Assembly: GCA_020052615.1 (NCBI GenBank)
Contig: JAGVOT010000069.1
Span: 1-41,813 of the forward strand
DNA: 41,813 nt
Source of the DNA: Nitrospirota bacterium
GTDB taxonomy: Bacteria; Nitrospirota; UBA9217
Direction of reading: 5' to 3'
Part shown: positions 7,032 to 39,272 of the stretch, in pieces
How positions within the stretch are numbered: the stretch's first letter is position 1
Layout of the letters: each line of letters starts with the position of its first letter
Made by a program: the position numbers and the translations under genes
The notes under the pieces: generated by a model
Told to the model about the DNA's origin: nothing
The model's database searches: none
Seen by the model: only the letters and a program-made list of their open reading frames with translations

Positions 7032-9121
7032 AGCTGCGGGATGGAATGACGCTGAAAACCCGGGCGGTCGTCGCCACCGGCGGTATCCTGCTCGCGGCCC
7101 TGGCACTGAACACGGGCCTCAATATCTACAGCGCGGCGGGGAAATACCGGGACGCGGTCATCGGGCGGACCACGGCGCTGGCCGAAGGCGTCAAAAAGGA
7201 CATTGAAAAGGTCACCGGGTTCGGTCTGCCGCTGAGCGCGCTGGACGGCATGAGCGACAAGCTCCGCGGGCTTATGGAAAGCGACGGTGAGATTTCTCTC
7301 GCCATGGTCGTGGACCGGGAGGGCAAGATCCTCTATGCGACCGACAAGGCCCGCGAGGGCACGCAAGCGACCGATCCCGGCAGCCGCACAGCCCTTGATG
7401 CGATGGCTCCGCTGGTGCAGGAATACTCCGATGAAACAGGGGGCCAGTATGAGAAGATCATCCCTCTCATGGGTCCTGACGGCAAGAAGATGGGGGTGCT
7501 CCGGATCGCGCTTACGGCAAGCGCGGTGAACCGTCCCCTCCGGGAACTGTTCGTCCTGTCGCTTATGGTGGGACTCGTTACGTTCGTACTGGCCACCTAT
7601 CTGGTGACCATCTTTATGAAGCGTCTGATCACCGGCCCTCTGGGACACATGGCACGGAACGCGACCCTGATGGCGGGAGGAGATCTTGCCCGGCAGGTCG
7701 ACGTGAGCGGCAAGACCGAGATTGCCGAACTGGGCACCGCGATCAATACCCTCTCGTCGAGTCTCCGGGAGATGCTCGGCAGGATCAATCAGATGACCGG
7801 AGGGCTGGGCGAAGCTATGAAGATCATGAACACAGCTACCCAGAAGATGAGCCAGGGCGCCCGTGTCCAGCATGAGGCCGGAGAGCAAACGGCCATGACG
7901 GTCGGCGAGATGATCGCCTCGATCAAGGGCGTTGCGGAGAACGCAGCGGAGATGTCCCAGGCCGCTACGAACGCCTCTTCATCGGTGGCGGAGATGGCAG
8001 CCTCCATCGAGGAGGCCGCCGAGAACGCCGGCGGTCTGTCGTCGGCGGCCGAGGACACCGCATCCTCCATCGTGCAGACCCTGGCATCGATCCGCCAGGT
8101 GACCGAGAACACCGAGGCCCTATCTTCCGCGGCCGAGCAGACGTCCTCCTCCATTACGGAGATGAGCGCCACCGTGAAAGCAGTGGAGCAGAAGGCGCAG
8201 GAATCGGCGCGCCTCGCCGAGCGGGTCGCCCGGAGCGCGTCGCAGCAGGGGATGGCGGCGGCCCGGGAAGCGATGACGGGCATGGAGAACATCCGCTTGA
8301 CGGTGGAATCCACGGCGGAGGTCATCAACCGGCTCGGGAAGCGGTCGCAGGAGATCGGGCAGATCCTGAAAGTGATCGACGAGGTGACGGACCAAACCAG
8401 CCTCCTCGCCCTGAACGCGGCCATTCTTGCCGCCCAGGCCGGAGAGCACGGGAAGGGATTCTCCGTTGTCGCCGAGGAGATTCGCGAACTGGCGGAGCGC
8501 ACGGCGGCCTCAACCAAGGAGATCGCCAATGTCATCGCTGCAGTTCAGCAGGAGACGGCCGCCAGCGTGCAGGCCATGGGCAAAGGTCTGAAGGCCGTGG
8601 AGAGCGGCGTGGACCTCGTGAAAATCACGAGCGATGTCTTTCAGGATGTGGCGGACAGCTCCAAACAGTCAGCGGATATGGCGCGGGCCATCGAAATGAC
8701 CACGGCCGAGCAGGCCAAAGGAGTGGCGCAAATCACCGATGCGTCGGTGAACATTGCGGAGCAGATCGAGCAGATCGCCCATGCCATGCAGGAACAGCAA
8801 AAGGGGAGCGAGCGCATCGCCCAGGCTGCGGAGAAGATGCGGGACATCACCCGGCAGATGAAGGTGGCGACGCAGGAGCAGACCGTCGGGAGCAAGCAGA
8901 TCGCCAAAGCAATGGAAGCGGTAACCGTCCAGGCCGCCCAGGTGGCCAGGTCTACGTCGGAGCAGGGCCTCGGCGCGCAGCACATCAGCGAAGCCATCAC
9001 CCGAATCCAGAAGATCACCGAAGAGAACGTGAACGTGTCCGTGGAGATGGACATGGCGGAGATGGCCCTGCGGGAAAAGGGAGCCGCCCTCCAATCGGAA
9101 CTGCAGAAGTTCAAACTCTAG
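7028..9121 (+). CDS. Methyl-accepting chemotaxis protein, transmembrane
   Basis: The receptor has 697 residues. Transmembrane segments lie at about 12-32 and 175-197 and enclose a periplasmic sensor of about 140 residues with a Cache/PAS-like stretch ([15 protein letters not shown]). A HAMP domain (about 198-250) leads into a long coiled coil. The highly conserved hairpin tip is at about 451-492 ([20 protein letters not shown]). The product clusters in polar arrays and controls CheA through CheW. There is no C-terminal CheR/CheB-tethering pentapeptide; the protein ends in QKFKL. The ATG overlaps the stop of the binding-protein gene, implying translational coupling and a shared signal. Confidence 0.93.
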
Positions 9122-9139
9122 CCGGTGCACAGGAACGGT

Positions 9140-11242
9140 ATGGGAAAAACCTTTACAGAAAGACTTAAGGATGCGATCAGATCGAGCATGGGACTCAAGC
9201 TCGTGATCACCCTTTCGGGATGGGTCACCGTCCTCATGCTGCTGGGTTCGCTCTTCGTGGGGCGCATGCTGCTCGACTATCAGTACCGTGCCATGGAGCA
9301 ACGGGGACGGGACATCGGCATGGTGCTCGGAAAGGCCTCCGTCGACCGGCTGATCGCGAAAGACCTGATCGGCCTGAACATGCTCGTTGAGGACGTGGTC
9401 AGGTCCCAGGGCATCATCGCCGTCGTTTTTGCGGATACCGACGGGACGCCTATCACCAGCGCACGGGCAAGCTTCAACGCGCGGAACGAGGACGTAAAGG
9501 CAGTGCAGGATGCGGAAAACACTGATGACGTCGCCAAGCTGTCCTCGGCCATCCGCCGGGAACTTTCGCCGATCGAGGTGTCTGTCGATGTCCTGCTCGA
9601 GGGGACCAGGCTCGCCGAGGTCCGGATGGCCTTCTCCCGCGCCGAAGCGCGCATGAACGCCGCGAAGGTGGTGGCGCTGCTGCTGGGGACCAGCCTGGTG
9701 ATCGTCCTGTCGATATCGGGCCTTGTGTATTTCATGGCGCGGAGGATGATCGCGGCGCCGACAAGCGCCGCGGAAGCCGTGGCGTCGGCCATTGCGGCCG
9801 GCGACCTGACGCAGAACGTGCGGGTGAGCACGATCGACGAGATCGGCAACCTCGGACGGGGTCTCAACCGCATGGTCATCGGCCTCAAGGGGATGATCGG
9901 GAACATACGGGGGACCTCCGAACAGCTTGTGCTGGTGTCGGGAGAGGTCACGGACGTCGCGGTGAGCGTCTCGTCCGCAAGCCGCGTGCAGAACGAGGCC
10001 CTGGAAGAGGCCGCATCGTCGGTGAACGAGATGCATTTTTCCCTGAAAGAGATCGGCGGGAGCATGGACGATCTCAGCGAGACCGCCGAGCAGACCTCGT
10101 CCGCCGTGATCGAGACCGCGGCCTCCATTGACGAGGTCGCCCGCCTCATGACCGATCTCTCCTCCTCCATCGAAGAGACCTCCGCGGCCATTACGGAGAT
10201 GTCGGCCTCGATCCGTCAGAACGCCGAGAGCGTCGGGGTCCTTACGGTGCTGGCCAACGAGACTGCGTCGACGACAACCGAGATCAGCGCGGCTGTCCGC
10301 GAAGTGGAATCAGGCGCGAAACAGTCGGTCGCTCTCGCCGAAGCGGTCACCGCGGATGCCCGGGACCTCGGGATGCGGTCCATCGAGAAGACGATCGAAG
10401 GGATGCGCCGCATCGAGGAAGAGTCGCAGCGGACCGCAGATGTCATCAACCGGCTCGGTGAGCGCGCTGAGAACATCGGCGGCATCCTGACGGTCATCGA
10501 GGATGTCACGGACCAGACAAGCCTGCTTGCCCTGAACGCCGCTATTCTGGCGGCCCAGGCCGGCGAGCACGGAAAGGGGTTCGCCGTGGTCGCCGCCGAG
10601 ATCCGGGAACTGGCCAACCGCACGGCATCGTCGACCTCGGAGATCGGGAAGCTCATCGTGTCCGTGCAGGAGGAGTCCCGGGAGGCTGTGGAGGTCATGC
10701 GGACGGGCGTTCAGTTGGCGGCGGAGGGGACCCGCCTTGCGCGGGAGGCCGGGGACGCCCTTCGGAAGATCCTGGAACGGGCCGACCAGTCGCGCGAGAT
10801 GAGTCGAAACATCAGCAGGGCAACGGCAGAACAGGTCACGGGCATCCGTCAGGTGAGCGAGGCCGTGGACGGGATCAATAATATGGCCCACCAGATCGAA
10901 CGGGCCACGTCGGAGCAGAAGACCGGCAGCGAACAGATCATGCGTGCGTCCGAACGGATGCGGGAGATTACCCATTTCGTCAAGTCGGCGACGGCCGAGC
11001 AGGTAAAGGCCAGCCGCAACATCACCAAGGTCATGGAAACCATGGGCTCCAAGGTGAACATGGTGAAACGGGCATCGGGCGAGGTGAGGACGGGCAGCGA
11101 CCTCATCGTGAGGGCCATTGAACGGATCAAGATGACGGCACGGGAAAATGCCGAACTCGCCGCCAATCTGAACAGCGCCGTGGAAGTGCTCACGGTCCAG
11201 GCGGGCACGCTGAAGAAAGAGCTCGGCCGGTTCACGCTGTAA
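9140..11242 (+). CDS. Methyl-accepting chemotaxis protein, transmembrane (second)
   Basis: From ATG 9140 the protein has 700 residues. A GTG at 9125 in the same frame is possible, but AGGAAC sits well only for the ATG. Transmembrane helices are at about 20-43 and 177-200. The periplasmic domain is of similar size to the first receptor but different in sequence ([20 protein letters not shown]). HAMP follows, then the cytoplasmic hairpin with its tip near residues 453-495. It lies directly after the first receptor and shares its signalling-domain layout. The pair probably arose by duplication, with divergence of the sensor. No tethering pentapeptide is present at the end (GRFTL). Confidence 0.92.
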
Positions 11243-22426: not shown

Positions 22427-23029
22427 ATGTCATCATCGGTCTTAAAATACGAAACAGCGGCCTCGACATCGCTCCTGGCCGAGGTCACGAGGCGCTCGGG
22501 CCAGAACCTCCAGGCCTGCTATCAGTGCCGCCGCTGCGCCGCAGGGTGTCCGGTCGGCGAAGAGACGGGCGTTACGCCCGACCGGCTGATCCGGCTGATC
22601 GTGCTGGGCGACCGCGAGGAGGCCGTGAACAACCTCCTGGTCTGGAAGTGCGTGGCTTGCTACACCTGCGGAACGCGCTGCCCCAACAACATCCAGACCG
22701 CGCGGATCACCGAGACGCTGAAGCAGATGTCCAAGGAGGCCCATGCCAAACCCCTAACGCCACGCATCGCCGATTTCCACAGCGCATTCATGACCTCGAC
22801 CCGGCACCTGGGCAGGTTCAACGAGATCGAGGCCCTGGCCATCTATGAGACAAAGACGGCGATCAAGGAGCTGTCCCAGGGGAAGGTGAAGGCCGTCATT
22901 GACGAGATGATCGGCCAGGCGCGGCTTGCCCTCGATATGATGAAAAAGAAGAGGCTCCATCTCGGCGTGGACAGGATTAAGGCGCGCTCGGAAGTGCAGG
23001 CCCTCTACGAAAAGGCAAAAGGCCGCTAA
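22427..23029 (+). CDS. hdrC: Heterodisulfide-reductase-like iron-sulfur subunit HdrC
   Basis: The 200-residue protein has two ferredoxin-type [4Fe-4S] motifs: C31/C34/C37/C41 (ACYQCRRCAAGCP) and C75/C78/C81/C85 (CVACYTCGTRCP). The C-terminus is helical and lacks transmembrane segments, so this is the soluble HdrC type. HdrC carries electrons between HdrA and HdrB. The gene order hdrC-hdrB-hdrA-mvhD-metV-metF points to the methylene-THF reductase complex described in Moorella. It does not suggest a methanogenic or sulfur-oxidising Hdr. Confidence 0.92.
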   Translation: MSSSVLKYETAASTSLLAEVTRRSGQNLQACYQCRRCAAGCPVGEETGVTPDRLIRLIVLGDREEAVNNLLVWKCVACYTCGTRCPNNIQTARITETLKQMSKEAHAKPLTPRIADFHSAFMTSTRHLGRFNEIEALAIYETKTAIKELSQGKVKAVIDEMIGQARLALDMMKKKRLHLGVDRIKARSEVQALYEKAKGR

Positions 23030-23046
23030 GGGCCCCGGAGACATTC

Positions 23047-23925
23047 ATGACACAACTTGCGTATTACCCCGGCTGTTCACTGCACTCGTCGTCGGAGCTC
23101 TATGACGTCCAGTGCAAGATGGTGTTCAATAACCTCGGCATTGAGCTTAAGGAGATCGAAGACTGGAACTGCTGCGGCGCTACCGCTGCTGCCAAGACCA
23201 ACGACTTTCTTGCCGTGGCGCTGCCCGCGCGGAACCTGGGGCTTGCGACCGCAACAGGCCTTTCGGAGATCGTGATCCCCTGCTCGTCGTGCTACAGCAG
23301 GACGCTGGTCTCGCAGAAGACCCTGGCCAAAGATCCCGGCCTCAGGGACTCGATCAACGCGGAGCTATCCCAGAAGATCAAGGGCGACATAAAGGTCTCG
23401 AGCATCCTCGAGATTCTTGTGCCGAAGGCAAGATCCGGCGAGCTTGCCGCCAAGGCGGTGAAGAAGCTCGATGGTTTGAAGCCTGCCTGCTACTATGGCT
23501 GCCTCCTGACCCGCTTTCCCATTGACATGGACGTGCCCGATAACGTGGAGAACCCCCAGGGCATGGAGACGGTGCTGAAGGCACTGGGAGCTGCACCGGT
23601 CGACTGGAGCTACAAGACCGATTGCTGCGGGGCTTCCGCGTCGGTGAACGACGCCGACCAGTCGCAGCTCCTCATGTCCCGCATCTTCACCGATGCGGTT
23701 GCTCGCGGCGCGAACTGTCTTGTTGCCACCTGCCCGCTCTGCCAGTTCAACGTCGACGCCTATCAGGCCGAGGTGGGAAAGAAATTCGGCATTGAAAAGC
23801 AGCTCCCCGTCTATTTCATAACAGAGCTCATCGGCGCGTCCATGGGGCTTGATCCTGTCGAGATGCAGGTGGACCGCCATTTCGTGGATGCCATGGGACT
23901 GTTAAAGGAGTTGAACCTGTTATGA
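23047..23925 (+). CDS. hdrB: Heterodisulfide-reductase-like subunit HdrB
   Basis: The protein has 292 residues with two CCG domains. The first holds Cys42-Cys43 (NCCGATAAAK) and the CSSC at 79-82. The second holds Cys193-Cys194 (TDCCGASAS) and CPLC at 229-232. In HdrB these bind two noncubane [4Fe-4S] clusters at the disulfide-reducing site. Both CCG motifs are complete, so the unusual clusters should form even though no CoM/CoB heterodisulfide is expected in a bacterium. The stop overlaps the hdrA start as ATGA. Confidence 0.93.
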   Translation: MTQLAYYPGCSLHSSSELYDVQCKMVFNNLGIELKEIEDWNCCGATAAAKTNDFLAVALPARNLGLATATGLSEIVIPCSSCYSRTLVSQKTLAKDPGLRDSINAELSQKIKGDIKVSSILEILVPKARSGELAAKAVKKLDGLKPACYYGCLLTRFPIDMDVPDNVENPQGMETVLKALGAAPVDWSYKTDCCGASASVNDADQSQLLMSRIFTDAVARGANCLVATCPLCQFNVDAYQAEVGKKFGIEKQLPVYFITELIGASMGLDPVEMQVDRHFVDAMGLLKELNLL

Positions 23926-26900
23926 GCGCATCGAAAACCAATAAAAGCGGCTCTGTTCTTATCGTCGGCGGCGGCATCGGCGGCATGCAGGCAGGCCTCG
24001 ACCTCGCGGACAGCGGATTCAAGGTGCACATGGTCCAGCGCGACACGTCCGTCGGCGGCACCATGGTGATGCTCGACAAGACCTTCCCCACGGGCGACTG
24101 CGCCATGTGCATGATCTCGCCCAAGATGGTCGAAGTGGGCAGGCACCTCAACGTCAACATCCACACGCTGTCCGAGGTCACGTCCGTTTCCGGCCAGGCA
24201 GGAGACTTCACGGTCAAGATCAGGAAGACCGCGCGGTACGTCGATCCGAAGAAGTGCACGGGCTGCGGCGACTGCGAAGCGAAATGCCCCAAGAAAGTGC
24301 CGAGCGAGTTCGACCAGCAGCTGGGCCAGCGCAAGGCCATCTTCTCGCTCTTTCCGCAGGCCGTTCCGAACACCCGGGCCATCGACGCGAGCGTCTGCCT
24401 CTGCCTGACGGACCCGCAGAAGAAGCGCTGCCGGCTGTGCGAAAAGGTCTGCAAGGCGAACGCCATCAATTACGAGGACAAGGACCAGGAGATCGAGGTC
24501 AAGGTCGGCTCAATCATCCTGGGGCCCGGCCTTGCCCGCTACGACGCGCGGGTGCGTCCCGAGCTCGGCCTCGGCCGCTGGCCGAACGTGGTCTCGTCCA
24601 TCCAGTTCGAACGCATTCTTTCGGCATCGGGTCCCTATAAAGGCGTGGTCCAGCGCCCCTCGGACCAGAAGCACCCGGTCAAGGTCGCCTGGATCCAGTG
24701 CGTGGGCTCCCGGGACAACCACAACGCAAACCCCTGGTGTTCGTCGGTCTGCTGCATGTACGCCACGAAGCAGTCGATCATCGCCAAGGAGCACGACAAG
24801 AAGATCGAGCCCACGGTCTTCTACATGGAGATGCGGGCCTTCGGCAAGGACTTCGACAAATATGTTGAGCGTGCCAAGAATGACTACGGCGTCAAGTACC
24901 GCCGCGCCATGGTATCGGCCATCCGCGAGGAGCCGGGAACGGGCAACCTCATCCTGCGCACGGCCGGCGAGGACGGCAAGCTCTCGAACGAGACCTTCGA
25001 CATGGTGGTCCTGTCCGTGGGCTTCGAGCCCCACAGAGATGCCGAGGCCTTCGCAAAGACCTTCGGCATCGAGACGAACGAGTACCGCTTCGCCAAGACG
25101 TCGCACTTCACGCCGGTCAAGACTTCGCGCGACGGCGTATTCGTCACGGGCATCTACCAGGGCCCCAAGGACATTCCCGACACGGTCATGCAGGGGAGCG
25201 GCGTGGCAGGAAGCGTCATGGCCCTTTTGTCCGAGGCGCGCGGCACCGAGACGGTCAAGAAGGAACTGCCGCCCGAGAAGGACGTGGCCGGCGAAGCGCC
25301 GCGGATCGGCGTGTTCGTCTGCCACTGCGGCACGAACATCTCCTCGACCGTCGAGATCGACCAGGTCGTGGAGTCCATCAAGAAGGAGAAGGGCGTTACC
25401 TACGTCACGAACACGATCTACGCCTGCGCACAGGACAACCAGGACATGATCAAGCAGACGATCAAGGACCAGAACCTGAATCGCGTGGTGATCGCGTCCT
25501 GCACGCCCCGGACCCATGAGAAGCTGTTCCAGGAGACCATCCGCGAAGCCGGCCTGAACAAGTACCTCTTCGATCTCGCCGACATACGCGAGCAGTGCTC
25601 GTGGTGCCACAAGGGCCAGAACGAAGTGGCAACGAAGAAGGCCATCAAGATCGTCAGGATGGCCGTCGCCAAATCCCGCCTCCAGGAGCCGCTCAAGAGC
25701 GAGACGGTCGGCGTGACGCCCGCCGCGCTCGTCATCGGCGGCGGTATTGCCGGCATGACCTCGGCGCTCTCGCTTGCCGACCAGGGTTTCCCCGTCCATA
25801 TCATCGAGAAAGACACCGAGCTCGGCGGGCTGGCAAAGAACCTCTACCGGAGCCTCGACGGCTCCGATGTCCAGGAGTTCCTTGCCGCGAAGATCGCCGA
25901 AGTGAAGGCCCATCCGAAGATCACGGTGCACACCGGCGCCGAAGTGAAGAAGACCGACGGGTTTGTCGGCAATTTCGAGACGACCCTCTCCAGCGGCAGC
26001 ACGGTAAAGCACGGCGCGATCGTGCTCGCAACGGGAGGCATGGAATATCAGCCCACGGAGTACCTTGCCGGCAAGAGTGCCAATGTCATTACCCAGCGCG
26101 ACCTCGAAAAGAAGCTCTTCGGCGAGAAGCTCGTACCGCGGACCGGCGAGCGCTTCATCATGATCCAGTGCGTGGGTTCCCGCGAAGAGCCTGCCCAGTA
26201 CTGCTCCCGCGTCTGCTGCCAGGACGCCATCAAGAACGCCATCGCCATCAAGAAGAGGAATCCCGCGGCCGAAGTGGTGATCATCTACCGCGATATCCGG
26301 ACCTACGGCCTGCGCGAGGATTATTATAAGGAAGCCCGCGATCTGGGCGTTCTCTTTGTGCGGTACGATGTCGACCGCAAACCGGTCGTCGAGCAGGCGG
26401 GCAGCAAGGTCCTTGTCAAGGCCTGGGACTTCATGCTGAACCGGGAGCTTCAGTTCGACGCGGACTGGCTCGTACTTTCTGTAGGACTCAGGCCGCATCC
26501 TTCGACCGACAGTGTCGGCGCCATGTACAAGGTGACAAGGAATCCCGACGGATATTATCTGGAAGCGCACGTGAAGCTCCGTCCCGTTGACTTCCCGAGC
26601 GAAGGGCTTTTCGTCGCCGGCCTCGGCCACGCGCCGAAGAACCTCGATGAGACCATCACCCAGGCGCTGGCGGCTTCGGGACGCGCGGGCGTGATCCTGT
26701 CCCATGAGAAGCTCGCGGTCTCGGGCATTATCGCCAAGCATAAGCGCGAGCTCTGCATGTCCTGTCTCTCCTGCCTCCGGGTCTGCCCCTTCGGTTCGCC
26801 CTATATCGACAAGGACGGCAAGATCTCGCACAACGAGGTCAAGTGCATGGGCTGCGGCATCTGCGCCGGCATCTGCCCGGCCAAGGCGTTCCAGGTGAAC

Positions 26901-26978
26901 AACTTCCGGGACGACCAGATCATCGCCATGATCGACGCGGCGGTGGAATCTGAAGAGGCCGGTGTCATCGGATCGTAA
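23922..26978 (+). CDS. hdrA: Tandem HdrA-type flavoprotein subunit
   Basis: This 1018-residue protein has two flavoprotein halves. The first has an FAD site (GGGIGGMQAG, about residues 16-25) and the HdrA-specific GDCAMCMISPKMVEVGRH. It also has a ferredoxin motif at 112-122 and further cysteines at 159-177. The second starts with a canonical HdrA N-terminal segment (GVFVCHCGTNISS, about 463-475). It has a second FAD site (GGGIAGMTSA, about 606-615) and two C-terminal [4Fe-4S] motifs (945-955 and 975-985). HdrA proteins hold the flavin that can bifurcate electrons. Cys467 in VCHCG is an ordinary cysteine, unlike the selenocysteine seen at this kind of site in some methanogens. The doubled FAD domain may give two flavin centres; whether both are active is unknown. 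Confidence 0.93.
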   Translation: MSASKTNKSGSVLIVGGGIGGMQAGLDLADSGFKVHMVQRDTSVGGTMVMLDKTFPTGDCAMCMISPKMVEVGRHLNVNIHTLSEVTSVSGQAGDFTVKIRKTARYVDPKKCTGCGDCEAKCPKKVPSEFDQQLGQRKAIFSLFPQAVPNTRAIDASVCLCLTDPQKKRCRLCEKVCKANAINYEDKDQEIEVKVGSIILGPGLARYDARVRPELGLGRWPNVVSSIQFERILSASGPYKGVVQRPSDQKHPVKVAWIQCVGSRDNHNANPWCSSVCCMYATKQSIIAKEHDKKIEPTVFYMEMRAFGKDFDKYVERAKNDYGVKYRRAMVSAIREEPGTGNLILRTAGEDGKLSNETFDMVVLSVGFEPHRDAEAFAKTFGIETNEYRFAKTSHFTPVKTSRDGVFVTGIYQGPKDIPDTVMQGSGVAGSVMALLSEARGTETVKKELPPEKDVAGEAPRIGVFVCHCGTNISSTVEIDQVVESIKKEKGVTYVTNTIYACAQDNQDMIKQTIKDQNLNRVVIASCTPRTHEKLFQETIREAGLNKYLFDLADIREQCSWCHKGQNEVATKKAIKIVRMAVAKSRLQEPLKSETVGVTPAALVIGGGIAGMTSALSLADQGFPVHIIEKDTELGGLAKNLYRSLDGSDVQEFLAAKIAEVKAHPKITVHTGAEVKKTDGFVGNFETTLSSGSTVKHGAIVLATGGMEYQPTEYLAGKSANVITQRDLEKKLFGEKLVPRTGERFIMIQCVGSREEPAQYCSRVCCQDAIKNAIAIKKRNPAAEVVIIYRDIRTYGLREDYYKEARDLGVLFVRYDVDRKPVVEQAGSKVLVKAWDFMLNRELQFDADWLVLSVGLRPHPSTDSVGAMYKVTRNPDGYYLEAHVKLRPVDFPSEGLFVAGLGHAPKNLDETITQALAASGRAGVILSHEKLAVSGIIAKHKRELCMSCLSCLRVCPFGSPYIDKDGKISHNEVKCMGCGICAGICPAKAFQVNNFRDDQIIAMIDAAVESEEAGVIGS

Positions 26979-27007
26979 CACGAAGAAGCAAGATCGAAAT
27001 GCTTGAA

Positions 27008-27099
27008 CACGAATAGCACGAATGATACGAATGTCACGAATGAAATGCCGGGTTTGAAAGGTCTTATTCGTGTAATTCGTCCCATTAGTGTCTTTCGTG
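27008..27099. repeat. Long imperfect inverted repeat built of CACGAAT units
   Basis: Two 34-base arms (27008-27041 and 27066-27099) match as reverse complements at 26 of 34 positions around a 24-base loop. Each arm itself repeats CACGAAT-like units every 8-9 bases. It fills the hdrA-mvhD gap and would form a long stem in the transcript. Confidence 0.85.
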
Positions 27100-27135
27100 A
27101 TAAGGCTTTTAGATTAAGATGAGAGGAGTGCATCC

Positions 27136-27648
27136 ATGGCTGTAGCAGAAAAAGCTCCGGAAAAGGCAACGGCCCCGTCCGTCGAGAAGCCGCATGAGAC
27201 GCCTGCCGGATGGGAGCCCAACGTCCTGGCCTTCGCGTGCCACTACTGCGCCTTCGCGGCGGCGGACCTTGCCGGCGTGATGCGTCTGTCCTATCCGCCG
27301 AACGTGAAGATCATCCGCCTTCCCTGCACCGGCAAGCTCGACCACATCCACATCCTCCGGGCCTTCGAACGGGGAGTGGACGGCATCTTCGTTGCCGGCT
27401 GACTGAAGGGCCAATGCCATTACCTGGAAGGTAATAAGTTCGCAGCACGAAGGATCGAATACGCGCAAAAACTGCTGACAAGTGTCGGCATCGATCCGAC
27501 ACGCCTGGAGATGTTCAATCTCTCGGCGGCCATGGGCCCACGATGGGCGGAGATCTGCACCGAGTTCACCGAGAAGGTGCGGAAGCTCGGTCCTTCGCCT
27601 GTGGCGCTCGCAAAACACCAGAAGTTATGCGGTACGGAAAAGGAGTAG
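27136..27648 (+). CDS. mvhD: MvhD-type subunit with a selenocysteine codon
   Basis: Read through the TGA at 27400-27402, the protein has 170 residues. Before it are the [2Fe-2S]-type cysteines C35/C38 (ACHYCAF) and C64 (LPCTGKLD). After it, in the same frame, come LKGQCHYLEGN and a full MvhD C-terminus. The TGA (codon 89) occupies the first position of the family's C-x3-G-x-CHY-type motif, where MvhD proteins have Cys and methanococcal VhuD has selenocysteine. A stem with a GGA loop starts 16 bases after the TGA. MvhD passes electrons between a partner oxidoreductase and HdrA. The stop is 3 bases from metV. An ordinary nonsense mutation is less likely because everything downstream remains conserved. 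Confidence 0.9.
27419..27435 (+). promoter_or_regulatory. Predicted bacterial SECIS hairpin in mvhD
   Basis: Seven perfect base pairs (27419-27425 with 27429-27435) enclose a GGA loop, beginning 16 bases after the TGA at 27400-27402. Distance and a G at the start of the loop agree with the SelB-binding hairpins of bacterial selenoprotein mRNAs. Confidence 0.65.
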
Positions 27649-27651
27649 AAC

Positions 27652-28347
27652 ATGATCGTCGGACAACAGAAACCATTTGATGAGATCTGGGGCATGGTCA
27701 AGGGCTTCAAAAAGGTCCTGGTCTACGGCTGCAATACCTGTGTGGCCATAAGCCATGCCGGCGGAGGCAAGGAGGCGGAGATCCTCGCGTCCATGATCCG
27801 CATGAAGGCGACCCAGGAAGGGGTCGATATGCTGGTGGACAACGCGGCCATCGAACGTCACTGCGAGCCCGAGTTCTTCGAGCCGCTCATGGAAAAGGTC
27901 AGGACCTACGACCTGGTGCTGTCCACGGCCTGCGGGGTTGGGGTCAACTTCCTGTCCGACCGCATCGGCGACATCCCGGTCTACCCCGGCGTGAATACGT
28001 CATTCTACGGCGCCGTGCCCAAGGCGGGCTTTTTCGTGGAGCTCTGCGGCGGATGCGGGAACTGCATCCTGCACCTGACGGGCGGCATCTGCCCGGTGGT
28101 GCGCTGCTCCAAGTCCCTCATGAACGGGCCCTGCGGCGGAACGGACAAGGGCAAATGCGAGGTCAGCAAGGAGATTGATTGCGCCTGGTACCTGATCGTG
28201 GAGCGGATGAAGAAGCTCGGCAAGCTCGAAGAGCTGTTCTCCATCCAGCCGCCGCGGAACTGGGCGACGGGAACGCACGGCGGTCCGCGCAGGCTCGTGT
28301 ACGAGCATATCATGGAGCTGGAAGAAGAGAAGAAAGCCGGGAAGTAA
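27652..28347 (+). CDS. metV: MetV, zinc/iron-sulfur partner of methylene-THF reductase
   Basis: The protein has 231 residues and belongs to the MTHFR C-terminal family. It has an N-terminal pair C27/C30 (GCNTC) and a dense cysteine region, CGGCGNC followed by GGICPVVRCSK and NGPCGG. In acetogens MetV binds MetF and links it to an electron donor such as the Hdr-MvhD module. Its start lies 3 bases after the mvhD stop, with AAGGAG inside the end of mvhD, indicating coupled translation. It is one of the clearest markers that this Hdr set serves methylene-THF reduction. Confidence 0.9.
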   Translation: MIVGQQKPFDEIWGMVKGFKKVLVYGCNTCVAISHAGGGKEAEILASMIRMKATQEGVDMLVDNAAIERHCEPEFFEPLMEKVRTYDLVLSTACGVGVNFLSDRIGDIPVYPGVNTSFYGAVPKAGFFVELCGGCGNCILHLTGGICPVVRCSKSLMNGPCGGTDKGKCEVSKEIDCAWYLIVERMKKLGKLEELFSIQPPRNWATGTHGGPRRLVYEHIMELEEEKKAGK

Positions 28348-28357
28348 AAAAATCAAA

Positions 28358-28420
28358 CCACAGAGGCACAGAGGAAGTCTTTTTTTAGGGAATCTCTCTG
28401 TGTTCTCTGTGCCCCTGTGG
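28358..28420. repeat. Inverted repeat with CCACAGAGGCACAGAG arms
   Basis: Arms 28358-28373 and 28405-28420 pair at 15 of 16 positions; a run of seven T residues and a further partial CTCTGTG copy lie between them. It fills the metV-metF gap. Confidence 0.85.
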
Positions 28421-28457
28421 TGATATTTGCATTGGACGTTATCTTTTGGAGGTTTCG

Positions 28458-29429
28458 ATGAAGAGCGGAAGCAATCTGGAAAAGGTCATCGCAAGCGGCA
28501 AGCCCGCGGTCACGGCAGAACTCGGGCCGCCCATGAGCGCCGATCCCCATGAGGTCGTCGAGAAGGCCCACAAGCTGAAAGGGTTCTGCGACGCGGCGAA
28601 CATCACGGACTGCCAGACGGCCGTGGTGCGCATCTCGAGCATCGCGGCTGCCTACATTGCCCTGCGGGAAGGGCTCGAGCCGGTGATGCAGATGACCTGC
28701 CGGGACCGGAACCGCATAGCCATGCAGGCGGACCTGCTGGGCGCGGCTGCCCTGGGCCTCAAGAACTGCCTCTGCATCGCCGGCGACCACCAGAAGTTCA
28801 GCGCGGCGGGCAAGCTCAAGGGCCACCCGGGCGCGAAGAACGTCTACGATGTGGACACGACCCAGCTCGTCGGGATCATGAAGAAGATGCGCGACGAAAG
28901 CCTGCAGGAGGGCGGTGACAAGATCGATGTGCCGCCGAAGTTCTTCATCGGCGCCTCCTGGACGCCCATGGGAGACCCCATGGATTTCCGGCCTTACAAC
29001 CTCAAAAAAAAGGTGGACGCAGGGGCCGACTTCATCCAGACCCAGGGCATCTACGATGTCGAGCTCTTCAAATCGCAAATGGAGAAGGCCCGCAATCTGG
29101 GGCTGCACGAGCGGACGGCGATCCTCGGCGGCATTATCGTGCCCCGGAGCGCCATGATGCTCAAGTACATGGATTCCTCCGTTGCCGGCGTCACGGTCCC
29201 GAAGGCGTTGATCGACCGCATGAACAAGGCGAAGGAAGCCGCGGGGGACGACAAGAAGAAGATGCGCGAACTGCAGGAGGCAGAGGGCCTCAAGATCACC
29301 GTGGAGCTTATCCACCAGATCCTCGAGATCCCCGGTGTCAAGGGCGTGCATATCCAGGCAATCGAGTGGGAGAGCGCCATGGAGGGGATCGTCAAGGCGG
29401 CCGGGCTCTATCCGCGGCCGCAGGTATAA
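28458..29429 (+). CDS. metF: Methylenetetrahydrofolate reductase MetF
   Basis: This 323-residue TIM-barrel flavoenzyme reduces 5,10-methylene-THF to 5-methyl-THF, the last step of the methyl branch. The early Glu in VTAELGPP (substrate-binding Glu), the NITDCQ segment, the CIAGDHQKF strand and the TQGIYDVELF strand are family features. ATG 28458 has GGAGG six bases upstream. Together with metV and the Hdr-MvhD genes it probably forms one multi-subunit complex, drawing reducing power from NADH, ferredoxin or a hydrogenase. The actual donor is not shown by the sequence. Confidence 0.93.
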   Translation: MKSGSNLEKVIASGKPAVTAELGPPMSADPHEVVEKAHKLKGFCDAANITDCQTAVVRISSIAAAYIALREGLEPVMQMTCRDRNRIAMQADLLGAAALGLKNCLCIAGDHQKFSAAGKLKGHPGAKNVYDVDTTQLVGIMKKMRDESLQEGGDKIDVPPKFFIGASWTPMGDPMDFRPYNLKKKVDAGADFIQTQGIYDVELFKSQMEKARNLGLHERTAILGGIIVPRSAMMLKYMDSSVAGVTVPKALIDRMNKAKEAAGDDKKKMRELQEAEGLKITVELIHQILEIPGVKGVHIQAIEWESAMEGIVKAAGLYPRPQV

Positions 29430-29470: not shown

Positions 29471-29848
29471 ATGCCTCAAAGTACAGGGACAGTGCGTAAC
29501 GCTCTATGGGTGATCCTGTTCGGTCTGCTGCTGAACTGGTCGTCAGCGGCCCTTGCCGGCCCGCGAAGCGCCGTTGAGGGAGAGCCGAAACGGTCGTACG
29601 GCGCCATCGACGTTGTCATGTATCAGACCAGCTGGTGACCCTACTGCAACAAGGCGCGGGAGTTCCTGCGCGGGATGGGTGTCAGCCTTACTGAATACGA
29701 TGTCGAGAAGGACCGCCAGAAGGGCGAAGAGATGATGGCGAAAAGCGGCTCGCGCGGCGTTCCGGTCGTCGACATCGAGGGGATCATCATACGCGGTTAC
29801 TCTCCCGATGCGATGAAAGATGCGATCGAGCGGAAACGAAGGGAATAG
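29471..29848 (+). CDS. Exported glutaredoxin-like selenoprotein
   Basis: Read through the TGA at 29636-29638, this is a 125-residue protein. Residues 1 to about 30 look like a signal peptide or membrane anchor (ALWVILFGLLLNW, then ALAG). A glutaredoxin/NrdH-type domain follows: the beta strand DVVMYQTSW, then U56-PYC, KAREFL, and the cis-proline segment SRGVPVVDIEG. The TGA sits at the first position of the CXXC active site, giving UXXC, a known arrangement in glutaredoxin-like selenoproteins. A GC-rich hairpin lies 15 bases downstream of it. The product is probably a thiol-disulfide reductant outside the cytoplasm. Its target is unknown; c-type cytochrome maturation or metal delivery are possibilities only. 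Confidence 0.87.
29654..29671 (+). promoter_or_regulatory. Predicted bacterial SECIS hairpin in the glutaredoxin-like gene
   Basis: GCGCGGG (29654-29660) pairs with CCTGCGC (29665-29671), with one G-U pair, around an AGTT loop that contains the GU typical of SelB-binding loops. It starts 15 bases after the TGA at 29636-29638. Confidence 0.7.
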
Positions 29849-33597: not shown

Positions 33598-34386
33598 ATG
33601 ATAGTTATCGGAGAGAAGATCAGTGTAATGGCGAAGAAGGTGCGCGAGGCGCTTATGAATCGCGATGCCAAGCCGATCCAGGACCTTGCCGTGGCGCAGG
33701 CCAACGCGGGCGCGCACTATATCGATGTGTCCATCGGCCCGGCCGAGGATGACGGCCCCCAGCTCATGGATTGGGCCGTGAAGATCGTGCACGAGGTCGT
33801 GCAGAAGCCCATCTGTCTTGACACGACCAACGTGAAGGCCATGGAGGCGGGGATCAAGGCGCACAACAACGCCTGGGGCCTGCCGATCGTCAATTCCACG
33901 TCTAACGAACCCGAGCGGTTTCCCATGCTCGAGCTGGCGGGTAAATACGGTACGAAAGTCGTTGCGCTCACTCTCGGCAAGGGCGGCCTTCCCGCCGACG
34001 CCGAGGACCGCTGTGTCATAGCGTCGGAGATCATGGCGCGCGGCATGGAGTTCGGCGTTCCCATGGAGAACATCCTGCTCGATCCCCTCATCCTGCAGAT
34101 CGCCACCATGCAGAACCAGGCCCTCCAGTCCGCCCGGGCGATCAGGATGTTCAAGGACCTGAACGACCCGCCCATGAGCACCGTTGTCGGGCTCTCGAAC
34201 ATATCGAATGGCGCTCCCAAGCATGTGCGCCACATCATCAACCGGTACTATCTGGCCATGCTTATCATGGAAGGGCTCACCCACGCGATCATCGATCCGC
34301 TCGACAAGGACATGATGGACACGGCGAAGACCGTGGAGATGATCATGGGCAAGACCATGTACGCCCATTCCTATCTTGAAATGTAG
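33598..34386 (+). CDS. acsE: Methyl-THF:corrinoid iron-sulfur protein methyltransferase
   Basis: The 262-residue TIM-barrel enzyme has the same length as the Moorella protein. It moves the methyl group of 5-methyl-THF to the cobalt of the corrinoid iron-sulfur protein. Pterin-binding family segments are ICLDTTNVKAMEAG, IVNSTSNEPERF and VVGLSNISNGAPKHVR. No separate cobalamin-binding domain is attached, which distinguishes it from MetH/MtrH fusions. It joins the folate branch (metF) to the acsCD genes that follow. Confidence 0.93.
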   Translation: MIVIGEKISVMAKKVREALMNRDAKPIQDLAVAQANAGAHYIDVSIGPAEDDGPQLMDWAVKIVHEVVQKPICLDTTNVKAMEAGIKAHNNAWGLPIVNSTSNEPERFPMLELAGKYGTKVVALTLGKGGLPADAEDRCVIASEIMARGMEFGVPMENILLDPLILQIATMQNQALQSARAIRMFKDLNDPPMSTVVGLSNISNGAPKHVRHIINRYYLAMLIMEGLTHAIIDPLDKDMMDTAKTVEMIMGKTMYAHSYLEM

Positions 34387-34493
34387 TTTTCCGGATCAGG
34401 GCCGCTTGCAAGGCAGAAATATATATAAGCTCAAGCTGCAGATTTATGCAATTCCTTGATAGTGTTACAAATTGTGATATTTCTCTGTTGTTC

Positions 34494-34521
34494 TTGACCG
34501 TTAAATCTGATAGTATATGCA
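34494..34521 (+). promoter_or_regulatory. Possible promoter ahead of acsD
   Basis: The 156-base gap before acsD is AT-rich. TTGACC at 34494-34499 and a weak TATGCA at 34516-34521 (16-base spacer) could form a promoter. A GAGGAGG ribosome-binding site follows. Confidence 0.35.
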
Positions 34522-34542
34522 AAATTTTTCGAGGAGGCTTTT

Positions 34543-35484
34543 ATGGCACTGGTGATTCCGAAAGAGTCTTACAGCGGAAAGATCTATAATGTGACGCTCG
34601 GGACCGGCGCAAAGGCCGTTACCATCGGCGGTGCGAGCGCACTTCCCTATCTGGCCTTCGAAGGCACGTTCCCGAATAAACCGGCCGTCGCGCTCGAAGT
34701 GACGGACATCGCTCCCGATGACTGGCCCGAGACGGTAAAGAAAGCCGTCAGCGGCGCGGCCTCGAACCCCGTCCAGTGGGCCAAGTTCTGCCAGCAGAAC
34801 GGCGCGGACGCAGTCGCGCTTCGGCTCATCGGGACCCATCCCGACCAGCAGAACAAGAGCGCTGAAGAGGCAGCCAAGATCGCGGCTGAGGTTGCCGCCG
34901 CCATCGATATCCCGCTCATCATCCTCGGCAGCGGACATGTGGAAAAGGACACCCAGGTACTTCAGGCAGCGGCTGCAGCCACGCGCGGGAAGAATTGCAC
35001 CATCGGCAAGGCGGTGGAGGAGAACTACAAGACCATCGCAGCGGCCGTCATGGCGAACGATCACAAGCTCATCGCCATGAGCCAGCTCGATGTGAACCTG
35101 GCGAAGCAGTTGAACATCCTGCTCAGCCAGATGGGCTTCGACAAGGAACGCATCATCATGGACCCCATGTCGTCGGCCCTGGGCTATGGCCTTGAATATA
35201 CCTACAGCGTCATGGAGCGCATCCGTCAGGCAGCGCTCCTCCAGAACGATCCCATGATGCAGACGCCGGTCGTGTGCGACATCGGCGCGAACGTCTGGAA
35301 GGTCAAGGAGACCATGGCGGCTGATGCGGAAGTGCCCGAGTGGGGCAGCCTCGAGGACCGCGCCCTTGCCTGGGAGGCGGTCACCGCTTCGGCCATGATC
35401 ACGGCGGGCGCGGACATGCTGATCATGCGGCACCCCGGCGCAGCGGCAAAGACGAAGGAGCTTATTGCCGAGTTGATGGGGTAA
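34543..35484 (+). CDS. acsD: Corrinoid iron-sulfur protein small subunit
   Basis: The 313-residue TIM-barrel subunit pairs with AcsC to hold the methyl-carrying corrinoid. Recognisable stretches are ALEVTDIAPDDWPE, ALRLIGTHPDQQNKS, IILGSGHVEKD and MDPMSSALGYGLEYTYS. GAGGAGG precedes the ATG with good spacing. Order acsE-acsD-acsC-acsB matches a complete methyl-transfer-to-acetyl-CoA module. Length agrees with bacterial AcsD. Confidence 0.94.
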   Translation: MALVIPKESYSGKIYNVTLGTGAKAVTIGGASALPYLAFEGTFPNKPAVALEVTDIAPDDWPETVKKAVSGAASNPVQWAKFCQQNGADAVALRLIGTHPDQQNKSAEEAAKIAAEVAAAIDIPLIILGSGHVEKDTQVLQAAAAATRGKNCTIGKAVEENYKTIAAAVMANDHKLIAMSQLDVNLAKQLNILLSQMGFDKERIIMDPMSSALGYGLEYTYSVMERIRQAALLQNDPMMQTPVVCDIGANVWKVKETMAADAEVPEWGSLEDRALAWEAVTASAMITAGADMLIMRHPGAAAKTKELIAELMG

Positions 35485-35498
35485 AATAACAAATAACG

Positions 35499-35585
35499 AA
35501 GTTAAGAAGGTCGGAAGGGGGGGAAGGTAGGCAAAGGCGGCAAACCGGCCGTCCTCGTATCTTCCCAACCTCTCAACTTCCCAAC
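35499..35585. repeat. Imperfect inverted repeat of GGTTGGGAAG-type units
   Basis: GTTAAGAAGGTCGGAAGG on the left (around 35501-35518) partly pairs with CTTCCCAACCTCTCAAC on the right (35561-35577). A second CTTCCCAACCTCC copy follows. It fills the acsD-acsC gap and is weaker than the other gap repeats. Confidence 0.55.
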
Positions 35586-35613
35586 CTCCGGTGTGATTGA
35601 AAGGAGTTCAGAA

Positions 35614-36954
35614 ATGGCACTTTCCGGTGTTGAAATATTCAAGCATCTGCCGAAGACCAATTGCAAGAAATGCGGCCACCCGACCTGTCTCGCCTTCGCC
35701 ATGAAACTGGCGGCGAAGCAGGCGAGTCTCGACGCCTGCCCCGATGCGTCGGAGGACGCCAAGAAGATCCTGGGCGAATCCGCGGCTCCGCCGATCCGCG
35801 GCATCACGCTTGGACTGGGCGACAAGGCCGTGAAGGTTGGAGAAGAGATCTGTCTTTTCCGCCACGATAAAAAGTTCTTCAATCCGAACGTCTTCGCGGT
35901 CGCGATCAAGGCCTCCGAGGCGGGCGACGCCGCGGCCAAGAAGATCGACGCCGTGAAGAATTCCGAGATCGATCGCGTGGGACAGAAGCTCCGCGTTGAT
36001 GCCATTGCCGTGACCGACGAGGGCGGCGATGCCGCAAAGTTCGCGTCCGTCGTGAAGCAGGTCGTGGACGGCGCCCCGGGCGTGCCGATCATTCTGGTCA
36101 GCAAGGACCCCGCGACGATCGAGGCCGGCATTGCGCATTGCGCCGACAAGCGGCCGCTCATCTACGCCGCCACGGCGGAAAACGCCGAGGCCATGGCGAA
36201 GATCGCCAAGGAAAAGAAGGCATCCCTGGCCATTGCGGCCGACGGGCTCGACGCGCTAACCGCGCTCTCCGAGAAGGTCAAGGGCCTGGGCGTGGACGAT
36301 CTGGTCCTCGATTCCGGCGCACGCAAGGTCAAGGACATGATCGAGCATTACACCATCATCCGCCGCGCCGCCATCAAGAAGAACTTCAAGCCCCTCGGCT
36401 ACCCCATCATTGCCTTTGCCGGCCGCGACAACTCGGTCTCGGAGACCATGGCGGCGGCAATCGGAACGATGAAGTATGCATCCATCATCATTCTGAACAA
36501 CGTGGAAAAGTGGAAGATGCTGGCGCTCCTGTCGCTGCGCCAGAACATCTACACCGATCCGCAGGTGCCGATGCAGGTGGCGCAGAACGTCTACAAGGTC
36601 GGCGATGCCAAGGACTCCTCGCCGCTCATGATCACGACCAACTTCTCGCTCTCCTACTTCATCGTGCGGGGCGAGGTCGAGAACAGCAAGGTCCCCGCGT
36701 GGCTCGCGGTCATGGACAACGAGGGGCTTTCCGTGCTCACGGCCTGGGCGGCCGGAAAATTCACGGCCGGCAAGATCGCGGCGTTCATCACCGAGAGCGG
36801 AGTGGAAAAGAACATCAAGCACAAGGAGCTCATCATCCCCGGCTATGTCGCCATCCTCTCGGGCGCGCTGGAAGAGAAGCTCCCGGGCTGGAAGATCACC
36901 GTGGGGCCGCGCGAGGCGAACGGCCTGCCGAGCTTCCTGAAGGGCCGGGCGTAA
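35614..36954 (+). CDS. acsC: Corrinoid iron-sulfur protein large subunit
   Basis: The 446-residue protein has the [4Fe-4S] cluster cysteines at 17, 20, 25 and 42 (CKKCGHPTC, then DACP). This is the same spacing as in characterised CFeSP. A TIM barrel and a C-terminal corrinoid-binding domain follow. The cluster keeps cobalt reduced so that it can accept the methyl group from AcsE and donate it to AcsB. ATG 35614 is chosen because GGAG lies just upstream and the family N-terminus (ALSGVEIFKHLPKTNC) starts there. Confidence 0.95.
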   Translation: MALSGVEIFKHLPKTNCKKCGHPTCLAFAMKLAAKQASLDACPDASEDAKKILGESAAPPIRGITLGLGDKAVKVGEEICLFRHDKKFFNPNVFAVAIKASEAGDAAAKKIDAVKNSEIDRVGQKLRVDAIAVTDEGGDAAKFASVVKQVVDGAPGVPIILVSKDPATIEAGIAHCADKRPLIYAATAENAEAMAKIAKEKKASLAIAADGLDALTALSEKVKGLGVDDLVLDSGARKVKDMIEHYTIIRRAAIKKNFKPLGYPIIAFAGRDNSVSETMAAAIGTMKYASIIILNNVEKWKMLALLSLRQNIYTDPQVPMQVAQNVYKVGDAKDSSPLMITTNFSLSYFIVRGEVENSKVPAWLAVMDNEGLSVLTAWAAGKFTAGKIAAFITESGVEKNIKHKELIIPGYVAILSGALEEKLPGWKITVGPREANGLPSFLKGRA

Positions 36955-37070
36955 TTTCAAGCAGGTCAGAAGGCAAGAGGGAAAGAGGGTAAACAAGGGC
37001 AACGGCCTTTTCTTACCGTCGTACCTTCCTCCTTTCTTTCCATCGAAGATTCTTACAAAGGAGCAGAACA

Positions 37071-39272
37071 ATGTCAAAAGTCATTGCCACTGGTGCCATT
37101 CTGGGTTCACATTATTATGTGAAACAGGCCGAAGCGCTCGTCGAGAAGGCCATTTCCGAAAAGGGCGCGGATTTCAAGTTCGAGTTCCCCGACACGGGAT
37201 ACTACCTGCCGCAGATGTTTGCCATGACCGGTTTCGAGGTCAAGACCGTCGGCGACATGAAGACCGCCCTCGAGAAGCATGTGAAGCCGCTCGTCACTGC
37301 TGCTCCGGTCGACAAGCTTTACGTGCCCTATCTGGGAGAGGCGCTGGACGCCGGCATGGCGACCTTGTTCGCGCAGGAAATGATCATGGCCGTCCGCTAC
37401 ATCTACGGCCAGGAACCGGTGAAGGATGACTCCATCGGGCTCACCTACAACGGGTTCATCTCCGACACCATCCTCCGGAACCTGGGCGTGCAGCTGGTGG
37501 ACGGCTCCATGCCGGGATATGTCTGCATCATCGGCGCGGCGAATGACGATGACCACGCGTTCGAGATCGCCCGGGACCTCCAGCAGAAGAACATCCTCAC
37601 CCTCATGTGCGGGAACGTGAACGGCGACAGCATGACCAAACAGCTCCTCCGCAAGGGCGTGCAGCTCGGCTGGGACACGCGTCTTGTCCCGCTCGGCCCC
37701 GAGGTGGAGCATGCCATCTACGCCCTCAACTGGGCGGCCCGCGCCGGCATCACCTTCGGCGGCATGAAGGGCGGCGACTATAAGAAGATCCTCAAATACT
37801 CCAAGGACAAGGTGTTCGCGTTTGCCATGGTCCTCGGCCCCCTGAACGACCGGATCTGGACCACCGGCGCCGGCGCCATCAACATGGGCTTCCCGGCCAT
37901 CGCGAACACGGACATCCCGACCATCCATCCTACCGGCGTGACGATCTACGAGGAGGTCGAAAAAGAGCTCGATCCCAAGAAGATCGTGGAGCGCTGCATC
38001 GAGGTCCGCGGCCTCAAGATCACGGTTTCGAAACCTCCGATCCCGGTGGCCTTCGGCCCGGCCTTCGAGGGCGAGCGCATCCGCAAGGAGGACATGCACA
38101 TCGAAATGGGCGGGCAGCGCACGCCCGCCTTCGAATGGCTCCGCACGGTCGACCTGGACAAGGTGGAAGACGGCAAGGTAACGATCGTCGGCACCGACGC
38201 CGAGGCGCGCTACAAGAAGGGCGGTCAGATGCCCCTGGGCGTCGTCATCGAGGTTGCCGGCCGCAAGATGCAGAAGGACTTCGAGCCCGTGCTGGAACGG
38301 AAGATCCACCACTTCGTCAATGAGGCGCAGGGCATCTGGCATATGGGCCAGCGTGATCAGAACTGGTTCCGCGTCAGCAAGGCTGCCTTGAACGAAGGCT
38401 ACGAACTGCGCCATTTCGGCGATATCCTGACCACCCAGCTCAAGCATAAGTTCAACAACATCGTGGACAAGGCCCAGGTGACGCTGTACGTGGACGAGGC
38501 CGACGTCAAGAAGATGCATGCCGAGGCATTGAAGGCCTATCATGAGCGCGACGTCCGGCTTGCCTCCATGACCGACGAGTCCGTCGATACCTTCTATTCC
38601 TGCATCCTCTGCCAGAGCTTCGCGCCGAACCATGTGTGCGTCGTGTCGCCGGAGCGTCTCGGGCTCTGCGGCGCGTACAACTGGCTTGACGCCAAGGCCG
38701 CATTCGAGATCGACCCCAACGGCGCGAACCAGCCCGTCCTGAAGGGCGAGGTCCTCGACGCGGTCAAGGGCCGCTGGAAAGGCGTTGACGAATATGTGTA
38801 CACCAATTCCCATCAGTCGCTGGAGTATTTCAACGCCTACAGCATCATGGATGCGCCCATGACATCGTGCGGCTGCTTCGAGTGCATTATGGCCATCGTG
38901 CCCGAAGCGAACGGCGTCATGATCGTGAACCGGGGCTTTACGGGCATGACCCCCATCGGCATGAAGTTCTCGACGCTCGCAGGCACGGTGGGCGGCGGCG
39001 CCCAGACCCCGGGCTTCATGGGCATCGGCCGGTTCTTCCTCACCAGCAAAAAGTTCCTTTTCGCTGAAGGCGGATTCAAGCGGGTTGTCTGGATGACCAA
39101 GAACCTGAAAGAGTCCTTTGCCGAGGAGTTCAAGAAGCGGGCGATCGAAGAGGGCATTCCCGACCTGATCGACCGGATCGCCGACGAGACCGTAGCCGAG
39201 GATTCCGAGAAGCTGGTGGCGTTCCTTACGGAAAAACAGCACCCGGCGCTCACCATGGAATCGATGTTCTAA
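37071..39272 (+). CDS. acsB: Acetyl-CoA synthase subunit of CODH/ACS
   Basis: The 733-residue enzyme joins CO, a methyl group and CoA into acetyl-CoA. The A-cluster ligands are complete: Cys511, 514, 523 and 533 hold the [4Fe-4S] cluster, and Cys600-Gly-Cys602 (SCGCFEC) hold the distal nickel. Spacing is identical to Moorella AcsB (506/509/518/528 and 595/597). The full N-terminal domain is present, so this is the bacterial and not the shorter archaeal CdhC type. The CO dehydrogenase subunit acsA is not in the window. A strong terminator follows, so acsB closes this transcript. Confidence 0.97.
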   Translation: MSKVIATGAILGSHYYVKQAEALVEKAISEKGADFKFEFPDTGYYLPQMFAMTGFEVKTVGDMKTALEKHVKPLVTAAPVDKLYVPYLGEALDAGMATLFAQEMIMAVRYIYGQEPVKDDSIGLTYNGFISDTILRNLGVQLVDGSMPGYVCIIGAANDDDHAFEIARDLQQKNILTLMCGNVNGDSMTKQLLRKGVQLGWDTRLVPLGPEVEHAIYALNWAARAGITFGGMKGGDYKKILKYSKDKVFAFAMVLGPLNDRIWTTGAGAINMGFPAIANTDIPTIHPTGVTIYEEVEKELDPKKIVERCIEVRGLKITVSKPPIPVAFGPAFEGERIRKEDMHIEMGGQRTPAFEWLRTVDLDKVEDGKVTIVGTDAEARYKKGGQMPLGVVIEVAGRKMQKDFEPVLERKIHHFVNEAQGIWHMGQRDQNWFRVSKAALNEGYELRHFGDILTTQLKHKFNNIVDKAQVTLYVDEADVKKMHAEALKAYHERDVRLASMTDESVDTFYSCILCQSFAPNHVCVVSPERLGLCGAYNWLDAKAAFEIDPNGANQPVLKGEVLDAVKGRWKGVDEYVYTNSHQSLEYFNAYSIMDAPMTSCGCFECIMAIVPEANGVMIVNRGFTGMTPIGMKFSTLAGTVGGGAQTPGFMGIGRFFLTSKKFLFAEGGFKRVVWMTKNLKESFAEEFKKRAIEEGIPDLIDRIADETVAEDSEKLVAFLTEKQHPALTMESMF

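Follow-up and report, generated by a model that had tools for sequence, protein, structure and literature searches.

A predicted selenocysteine at the fourth conserved cysteine of MvhD in a MetVF-linked gene set of Nitrospirota

Described Sec-MvhD proteins and the gene set in the window

Bacterial MvhD/FrhD proteins that contain selenocysteine (Sec) form a well-established selenoprotein family, and Moorella is known to have a MetFV-HdrABC-MvhD complex. The survey by Zhang (2006, PMC1794560) counts 19 FrhD proteins with Sec in bacteria, notes conversions between Sec and Cys in both directions, and names Moorella thermoacetica, Carboxydothermus and Syntrophobacter among the carriers; the Moorella FrhD listed there as Sec may or may not be the metFV-linked copy. 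Four Sec-MvhDs (mvhD1,2,3,5) are given for D. autotrophicum in a 2009 paper (PMC2702500), and a 2026 review gives the family motif as CxxU, with 2 Sec (PMC13188914). In MvhD-type subunits, a single [2Fe-2S] cluster sits close to HdrA's bifurcating FAD (PMC12350162; PMC6019823). The MetFV-HdrABC-MvhD methylene-tetrahydrofolate (methylene-THF) reductase of M. thermoacetica has been described (PMC5861303, PMC5736913). Its proposed role is to link the oxidation of NADH to the reduction of methylene-THF, and its HdrA carries two FAD (PMC5861303).

The DNA analysed here (the window, 41,813 nucleotides on contig C37) belongs to a 4.0 Mb, 98% complete, multi-contig draft genome, and the named homologues nearest to its MvhD are from Nitrospirota. 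The window is a Wood-Ljungdahl gene neighbourhood. A methylene-THF reductase gene set, already claimed in the preliminary description, is found there as the six adjacent genes hdrC, hdrB, hdrA, mvhD, metV and metF, in a one-direction run at 22427-29429. Upstream of the run are genes for GTP cyclohydrolase and 5-formyl-THF cyclo-ligase; downstream (33598-39269) follow those for methyltransferase and CODH/ACS (acs). The features of the run are:

22427-23029, plus strand: hdrC; 4Fe-4S domains; TIGR03290, E 5e-16, below cut-off
23047-23925, plus strand: hdrB; PF02754 CCG domain, E 4.5e-19; TIGR03288, E 3.6e-45, below cut-off
23922-26978, plus strand: hdrA, 1018 aa; NF040770, E 2e-292, below cut-off
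27121-27128, plus strand: ribosome-binding-site-like GAGAGGAG, separated by 7 nt from the ATG of mvhD (27136)
27136-27645, plus strand: mvhD (flpD), 170 aa with predicted Sec at residue 89; PF02662 match, homologues in the same gene context
27400-27402, plus strand: in-frame UGA, predicted to be read as Sec; TGA in the nearest homologues, Cys codon in more distant metV-linked ones
27403-27418, plus strand: 16-nt spacer from UGA to hairpin, read from the sequence
27419-27435, plus strand: putative bacterial SECIS-type hairpin, 7-bp stem, loop GGA; synonymous constraint and one compensatory pair
27652-28347, plus strand: metV; PF12225 (DUF5981, methylene-THF reductase C-terminal), E 6e-35
28446-29429, plus strand: metF; PF02219 MTHFR, E 3.4e-34

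The same six gene types are adjacent for the Moorella complex, and HdrA again has two FAD-binding units (FAD-type Pfam matches from residues 12 and 603), together with ferredoxin domains; an open reading frame check of hdrA found no in-frame TGA. The difference lies in the hosts, which are Nitrospirota and former Deltaproteobacteria, where the complex is a predicted one. With the bacterial Sec-FrhD/MvhD proteins the locus shares the PF02662 domain, the in-frame UGA, the bacterial host and the hdrA association, whereas Nitrospirota and metV-linked copies are not discussed in the available portions of those papers (PMC1794560, PMC2702500). In contrast to the reviewed CxxU motif with 2 Sec, a single Sec is predicted here, at the fourth conserved Cys and outside the CxxC.

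The hdrA-mvhD gap contains clustered inverted ATTCGT/ACGAAT repeats at 27009-27080 (4 matches against 0.03 expected), looking like a short palindromic repeat element. In the same-genus relative L042, mvhD and metV are separated by an insertion of about 1.8 kb (8499-10207), the first gene of the insert encoding a DUF4258 protein (PF14076, E 2.5e-24) and the second resembling a zinc-binding antitoxin, with no Pfam match; about 0.85 kb lies between the same two genes in L041.

Codon 89 of mvhD and its relatives

From the reading frame, it is clear that the TGA at 27400-27402 is the sole interruption of mvhD, being followed by 81 codons (27403-27645) and a TAG, just as the preliminary description had it. 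The read-through product matches PF02662 (FlpD) with 163 bits (gathering score 22.3, E 3.9e-48) over positions 1-123 of 123, and since it matches solved MvhDs at E 1e-40, its fold can be taken as fixed. Residue 89 is the U in AG-U-L-K-G-Q-C-H-Y; of the five positions at which Cys is conserved (35, 38, 64, 89 and 94), it is the fourth. The earlier placement of the TGA at a conserved Cys therefore stands, while the spacing then given, G-C-x3-G-x-CHY, has to be corrected to G-U-x2-G-x-CHY. As for the parallel once drawn with methanococcal VhuD, PDB 9sfi_K, a chain that bears the name of this subunit, carries a nonstandard letter at this column; it differs in having a second nonstandard letter at the CxxC site. 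Sec-MvhD is already well documented in bacteria and so is not special to methanococci.

A contig scan with the five closest proteins gave the 80 nearest loci in named genomes, which span two lineages, Nitrospirota and former Deltaproteobacteria. Cultured carriers in the clade include Desulfofustis glycolicus (L106), Desulfopila aestuarii (L115) and Desulfoprunum benzoelyticum (L117). These homologues are 60-93% identical and share the same gene context, the protein is strongly conserved past the TGA, and codon 89 is TGA in 80/80 (76 by script and the other 4 separately), including the complete chromosomes L095 and L098. Using tblastn, hdrA was found before mvhD and metV nearby at every one of these loci; metV lies downstream of mvhD in 79, the exception being L072, where it lies upstream.

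We have also checked broader samples. In a draw of 396 genomes from the phylum, the TGA is present in each of the 26 closest matches (E below 1e-88); an E-value gap from 1e-88 to 1e-45 follows, and then weaker matches, mostly TGA-free paralogues, of which those examined have Cys at codon 89 and no metV within about 1.5 kb. All 26 TGA-bearing genomes have selA, but so do most other genomes of the phylum, and this co-occurrence therefore carries little weight. Among 395 Desulfobacterota genomes, the 6 closest matches all have the TGA, and the next tier is mixed: the loci examined there are mostly metV-linked MvhDs, and their codons predict Cys at the two sites, Sec89 (L162) or, in four loci, Sec at CxxC. 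The four loci, L163, L172, L177 and L178, are metV-linked, with the TGA at the second CxxC Cys and Cys at the residue-89 position. Beyond the Sec89 clade, metV-linked MvhDs have TGC or TGT at codon 89, and no sense codon other than Cys was found at this position among the relatives examined, so that the homologue comparison called for at the outset returned TGA or Cys codons only. Four MvhD-type matches (G220, G576, G738 and G718) have two in-frame TGAs, possibly specifying Sec at both sites. In G396 (Desulfosediminicola flagellatus), selB is present and selA was not found by our search; as 43 selenoproteins have been reported for this strain (PMC12013277), we take the miss as an artefact of the search or of the sequence copy.

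The downstream hairpin and the decoding machinery

In bacteria, SelB delivers Sec-tRNA to a UGA that has a suitable hairpin downstream. The 7-bp stem with a G-first loop that was previously placed 16 bases after the TGA is indeed present at 27419-27435 (ATTACCT-GGA-AGGTAAT), with a G early in the apical loop. It lies within the coding frame, in contrast to archaea, where SECIS elements are sought in 3' untranslated regions (PMC11227280). A single sequence makes a weak case for the hairpin: the bare 17-mer folds with a z of -2.4, its 41-71 nt surroundings are unremarkable (z -0.1 to -0.8), and synonymous resampling of the peptide yields a 6-bp stem by chance in 5% (HYLEGN) to 12% (HFLEGN) of cases. 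Rfam gave no match at the gathering threshold anywhere in the window, which we regard as uninformative.

Comparison across relatives is far stronger, and it is this conservation that takes the hairpin beyond chance. The 6-bp stem is retained in 78/80 homologue sequences. Across 77 sequences, synonymous entropy is near zero at codons +6 to +11, with the exception of a covarying Gly codon, while codons up to +5 and from +12 on vary freely, the only bias before the stem being at Gln codon +4 (CAA in 66/77); the collapse at +6 to +11 coincides exactly with the stem-loop. One stem pair is variable: Nitrospirota have A-U there (TAC with GGT), the other lineage U-A (TTC with GGA), and the association is perfect (GGT with TAC 29/29, GGA with TTC 48/48); since the Gly codon change is synonymous, it is not demanded by the protein. 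Of the cells in 29 distinct rows, 99% pair, and only 28-71% do so when the partner is slid; the covariation score is 0.134 against 0.032 when shuffled (0/500 as high) and 0.000-0.008 in slid controls. Covariation is confined to 1/7 stem pairs, it may reflect a single event at the split of the two lineages, and relatedness inflates such counts; the synonymous constraint is thus the broader support.

The genome was also searched with profiles for the Sec machinery. All four genes whose presence the preliminary description had wanted checked (selA, selB, selC and selD) were found: selA with 613 bits (cut-off 268), selB with 384 bits (cut-off 242), selD with 362 bits (cut-off 125), and a tRNA-Sec with anticodon TCA (UCA) on contig C50. 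The selD gene (L009, C59:21410-22333) has one in-frame TGA itself (SCG-U-AAK), and its product is probably also a selenoprotein. A second, divergent TCA-anticodon tRNA (L004, C130:47997-48087) scores 52.9 bits, lower than the tRNA-Sec on C50; a search at E<=1e-8 showed no counterpart in G001, of the same genus, or in G008, of the same family.

A second putative selenoprotein gene, absent from the earlier account, lies 2 kb downstream of mvhD (29471-29848, plus strand; TGA 29636-29638). The product is glutaredoxin-like (PF00462, E 8.9e-18), with a UPYC motif and a hydrophobic N-terminus, and may be exported. A 7-bp hairpin starts 15 nt past this TGA, which is conserved in L042 (12118-12474).

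Alternative readings, proposed function and origin

Several alternatives to Sec insertion have to be weighed. The TGA could be a genuine stop, come from a sequencing error or be a nonsense mutation of recent date, so that mvhD is truncated or broken. This would agree with the standard gene caller, which ends the product at residue 88, and with the multi-contig draft state of the assembly; however, the same TGA in 80 assemblies of two lineages, among them complete chromosomes, and the strong protein conservation downstream of it make this explanation extremely improbable, and a true stop or assembly error was rejected on the conservation of the TGA. UGA could also be read by another tRNA, as Cys through a selC*-like tRNA(UCA), or as Trp or Gly in a recoded genome. 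Transfer RNAs resembling tRNA-Sec and carrying Cys have been described, and the divergent TCA tRNA on C130 would be a candidate. Yet G001, G008, G017, G112 and G129 keep the UGA-containing MvhD with only one tRNA-Sec match each (E<=1e-8), a general suppressor tRNA would not need the conserved SECIS-type hairpin, and other long genes such as hdrA are free of in-frame TGA, so we give this reading hardly any credence. Whole-genome recoding of TGA was rejected on the long genes without in-frame TGA and the complete sel machinery. We therefore regard it as nearly certain that the TGA of mvhD is decoded as Sec, with the insertion predicted to be directed by the hairpin: SelB with Sec-tRNA(UCA) would bind the hairpin 16 nt past the UGA and place Sec at residue 89.

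The partner of such a subunit is a separate matter. Methanogen MvhD is a shared connector that receives electrons from Vhu or Fdh (PMC6019823), and a Sec-containing MvhD could likewise serve a general HdrABC complex supplied by other donors, instead of a MetVF complex. This is rather unlikely, as metV adjoins mvhD in 80/80 loci, acs genes lie downstream in the window, and the presence of two FAD units in HdrA agrees with the Moorella complex (PMC5861303). We infer that Sec-MvhD probably works in a MetVF-Hdr complex, a MetVF-HdrABC-MvhD methylene-THF reductase like that of Moorella, in which Sec89-MvhD would act as the connector with the [2Fe-2S] cluster. The five Cys/Sec positions, residue 89 included, are expected to hold the [2Fe-2S] cluster, which is known from relatives with solved structures, and electrons would pass between HdrA and the partner enzyme. 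The altered redox link to HdrA suggested in the preliminary description is conjecture.

For the origin of Sec89, a tree was built after U had been replaced by C, which neutralises the Sec column. It places 31 Sec89 proteins on one side of one branch (support 90/80), with L162 on a long branch. Sec89 needs one change on this tree, compared with 19.8 in shuffles, and Sec at CxxC needs three; a single origin within the tree sample is thus favoured, not proven. A further reading, which we hold only tentatively and consider doubtful on balance, is that Sec89 arose once in the MetVF-linked clade and has never been seen reverting to Cys. Sec would then be functionally required there, to tune how labile the [2Fe-2S] cluster is or what potential it has when methylene-THF is reduced, and sister metV-linked MvhDs would do the same task with Cys, or with Sec at CxxC.

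Set against the described systems, the new content is modest: a predicted Sec at the fourth conserved Cys, probably of one origin, with no Cys reversion seen. Clade-wide invariance, SECIS covariation and metV linkage were not found in the open-access literature, most subscription journals lying outside the search.

With gene callers ending the subunit at residue 88, many CO2-fixing Nitrospirota and sulfate reducers may be annotated as having a methylene-THF reductase complex that lacks MvhD. The MvhD family also offers a natural series at two positions of a single [2Fe-2S] protein (Cys/Cys, Cys/Sec and Sec/Cys) in the same operon type, which would allow the role of selenium to be tested outside a catalytic site, in an iron-sulfur connector.
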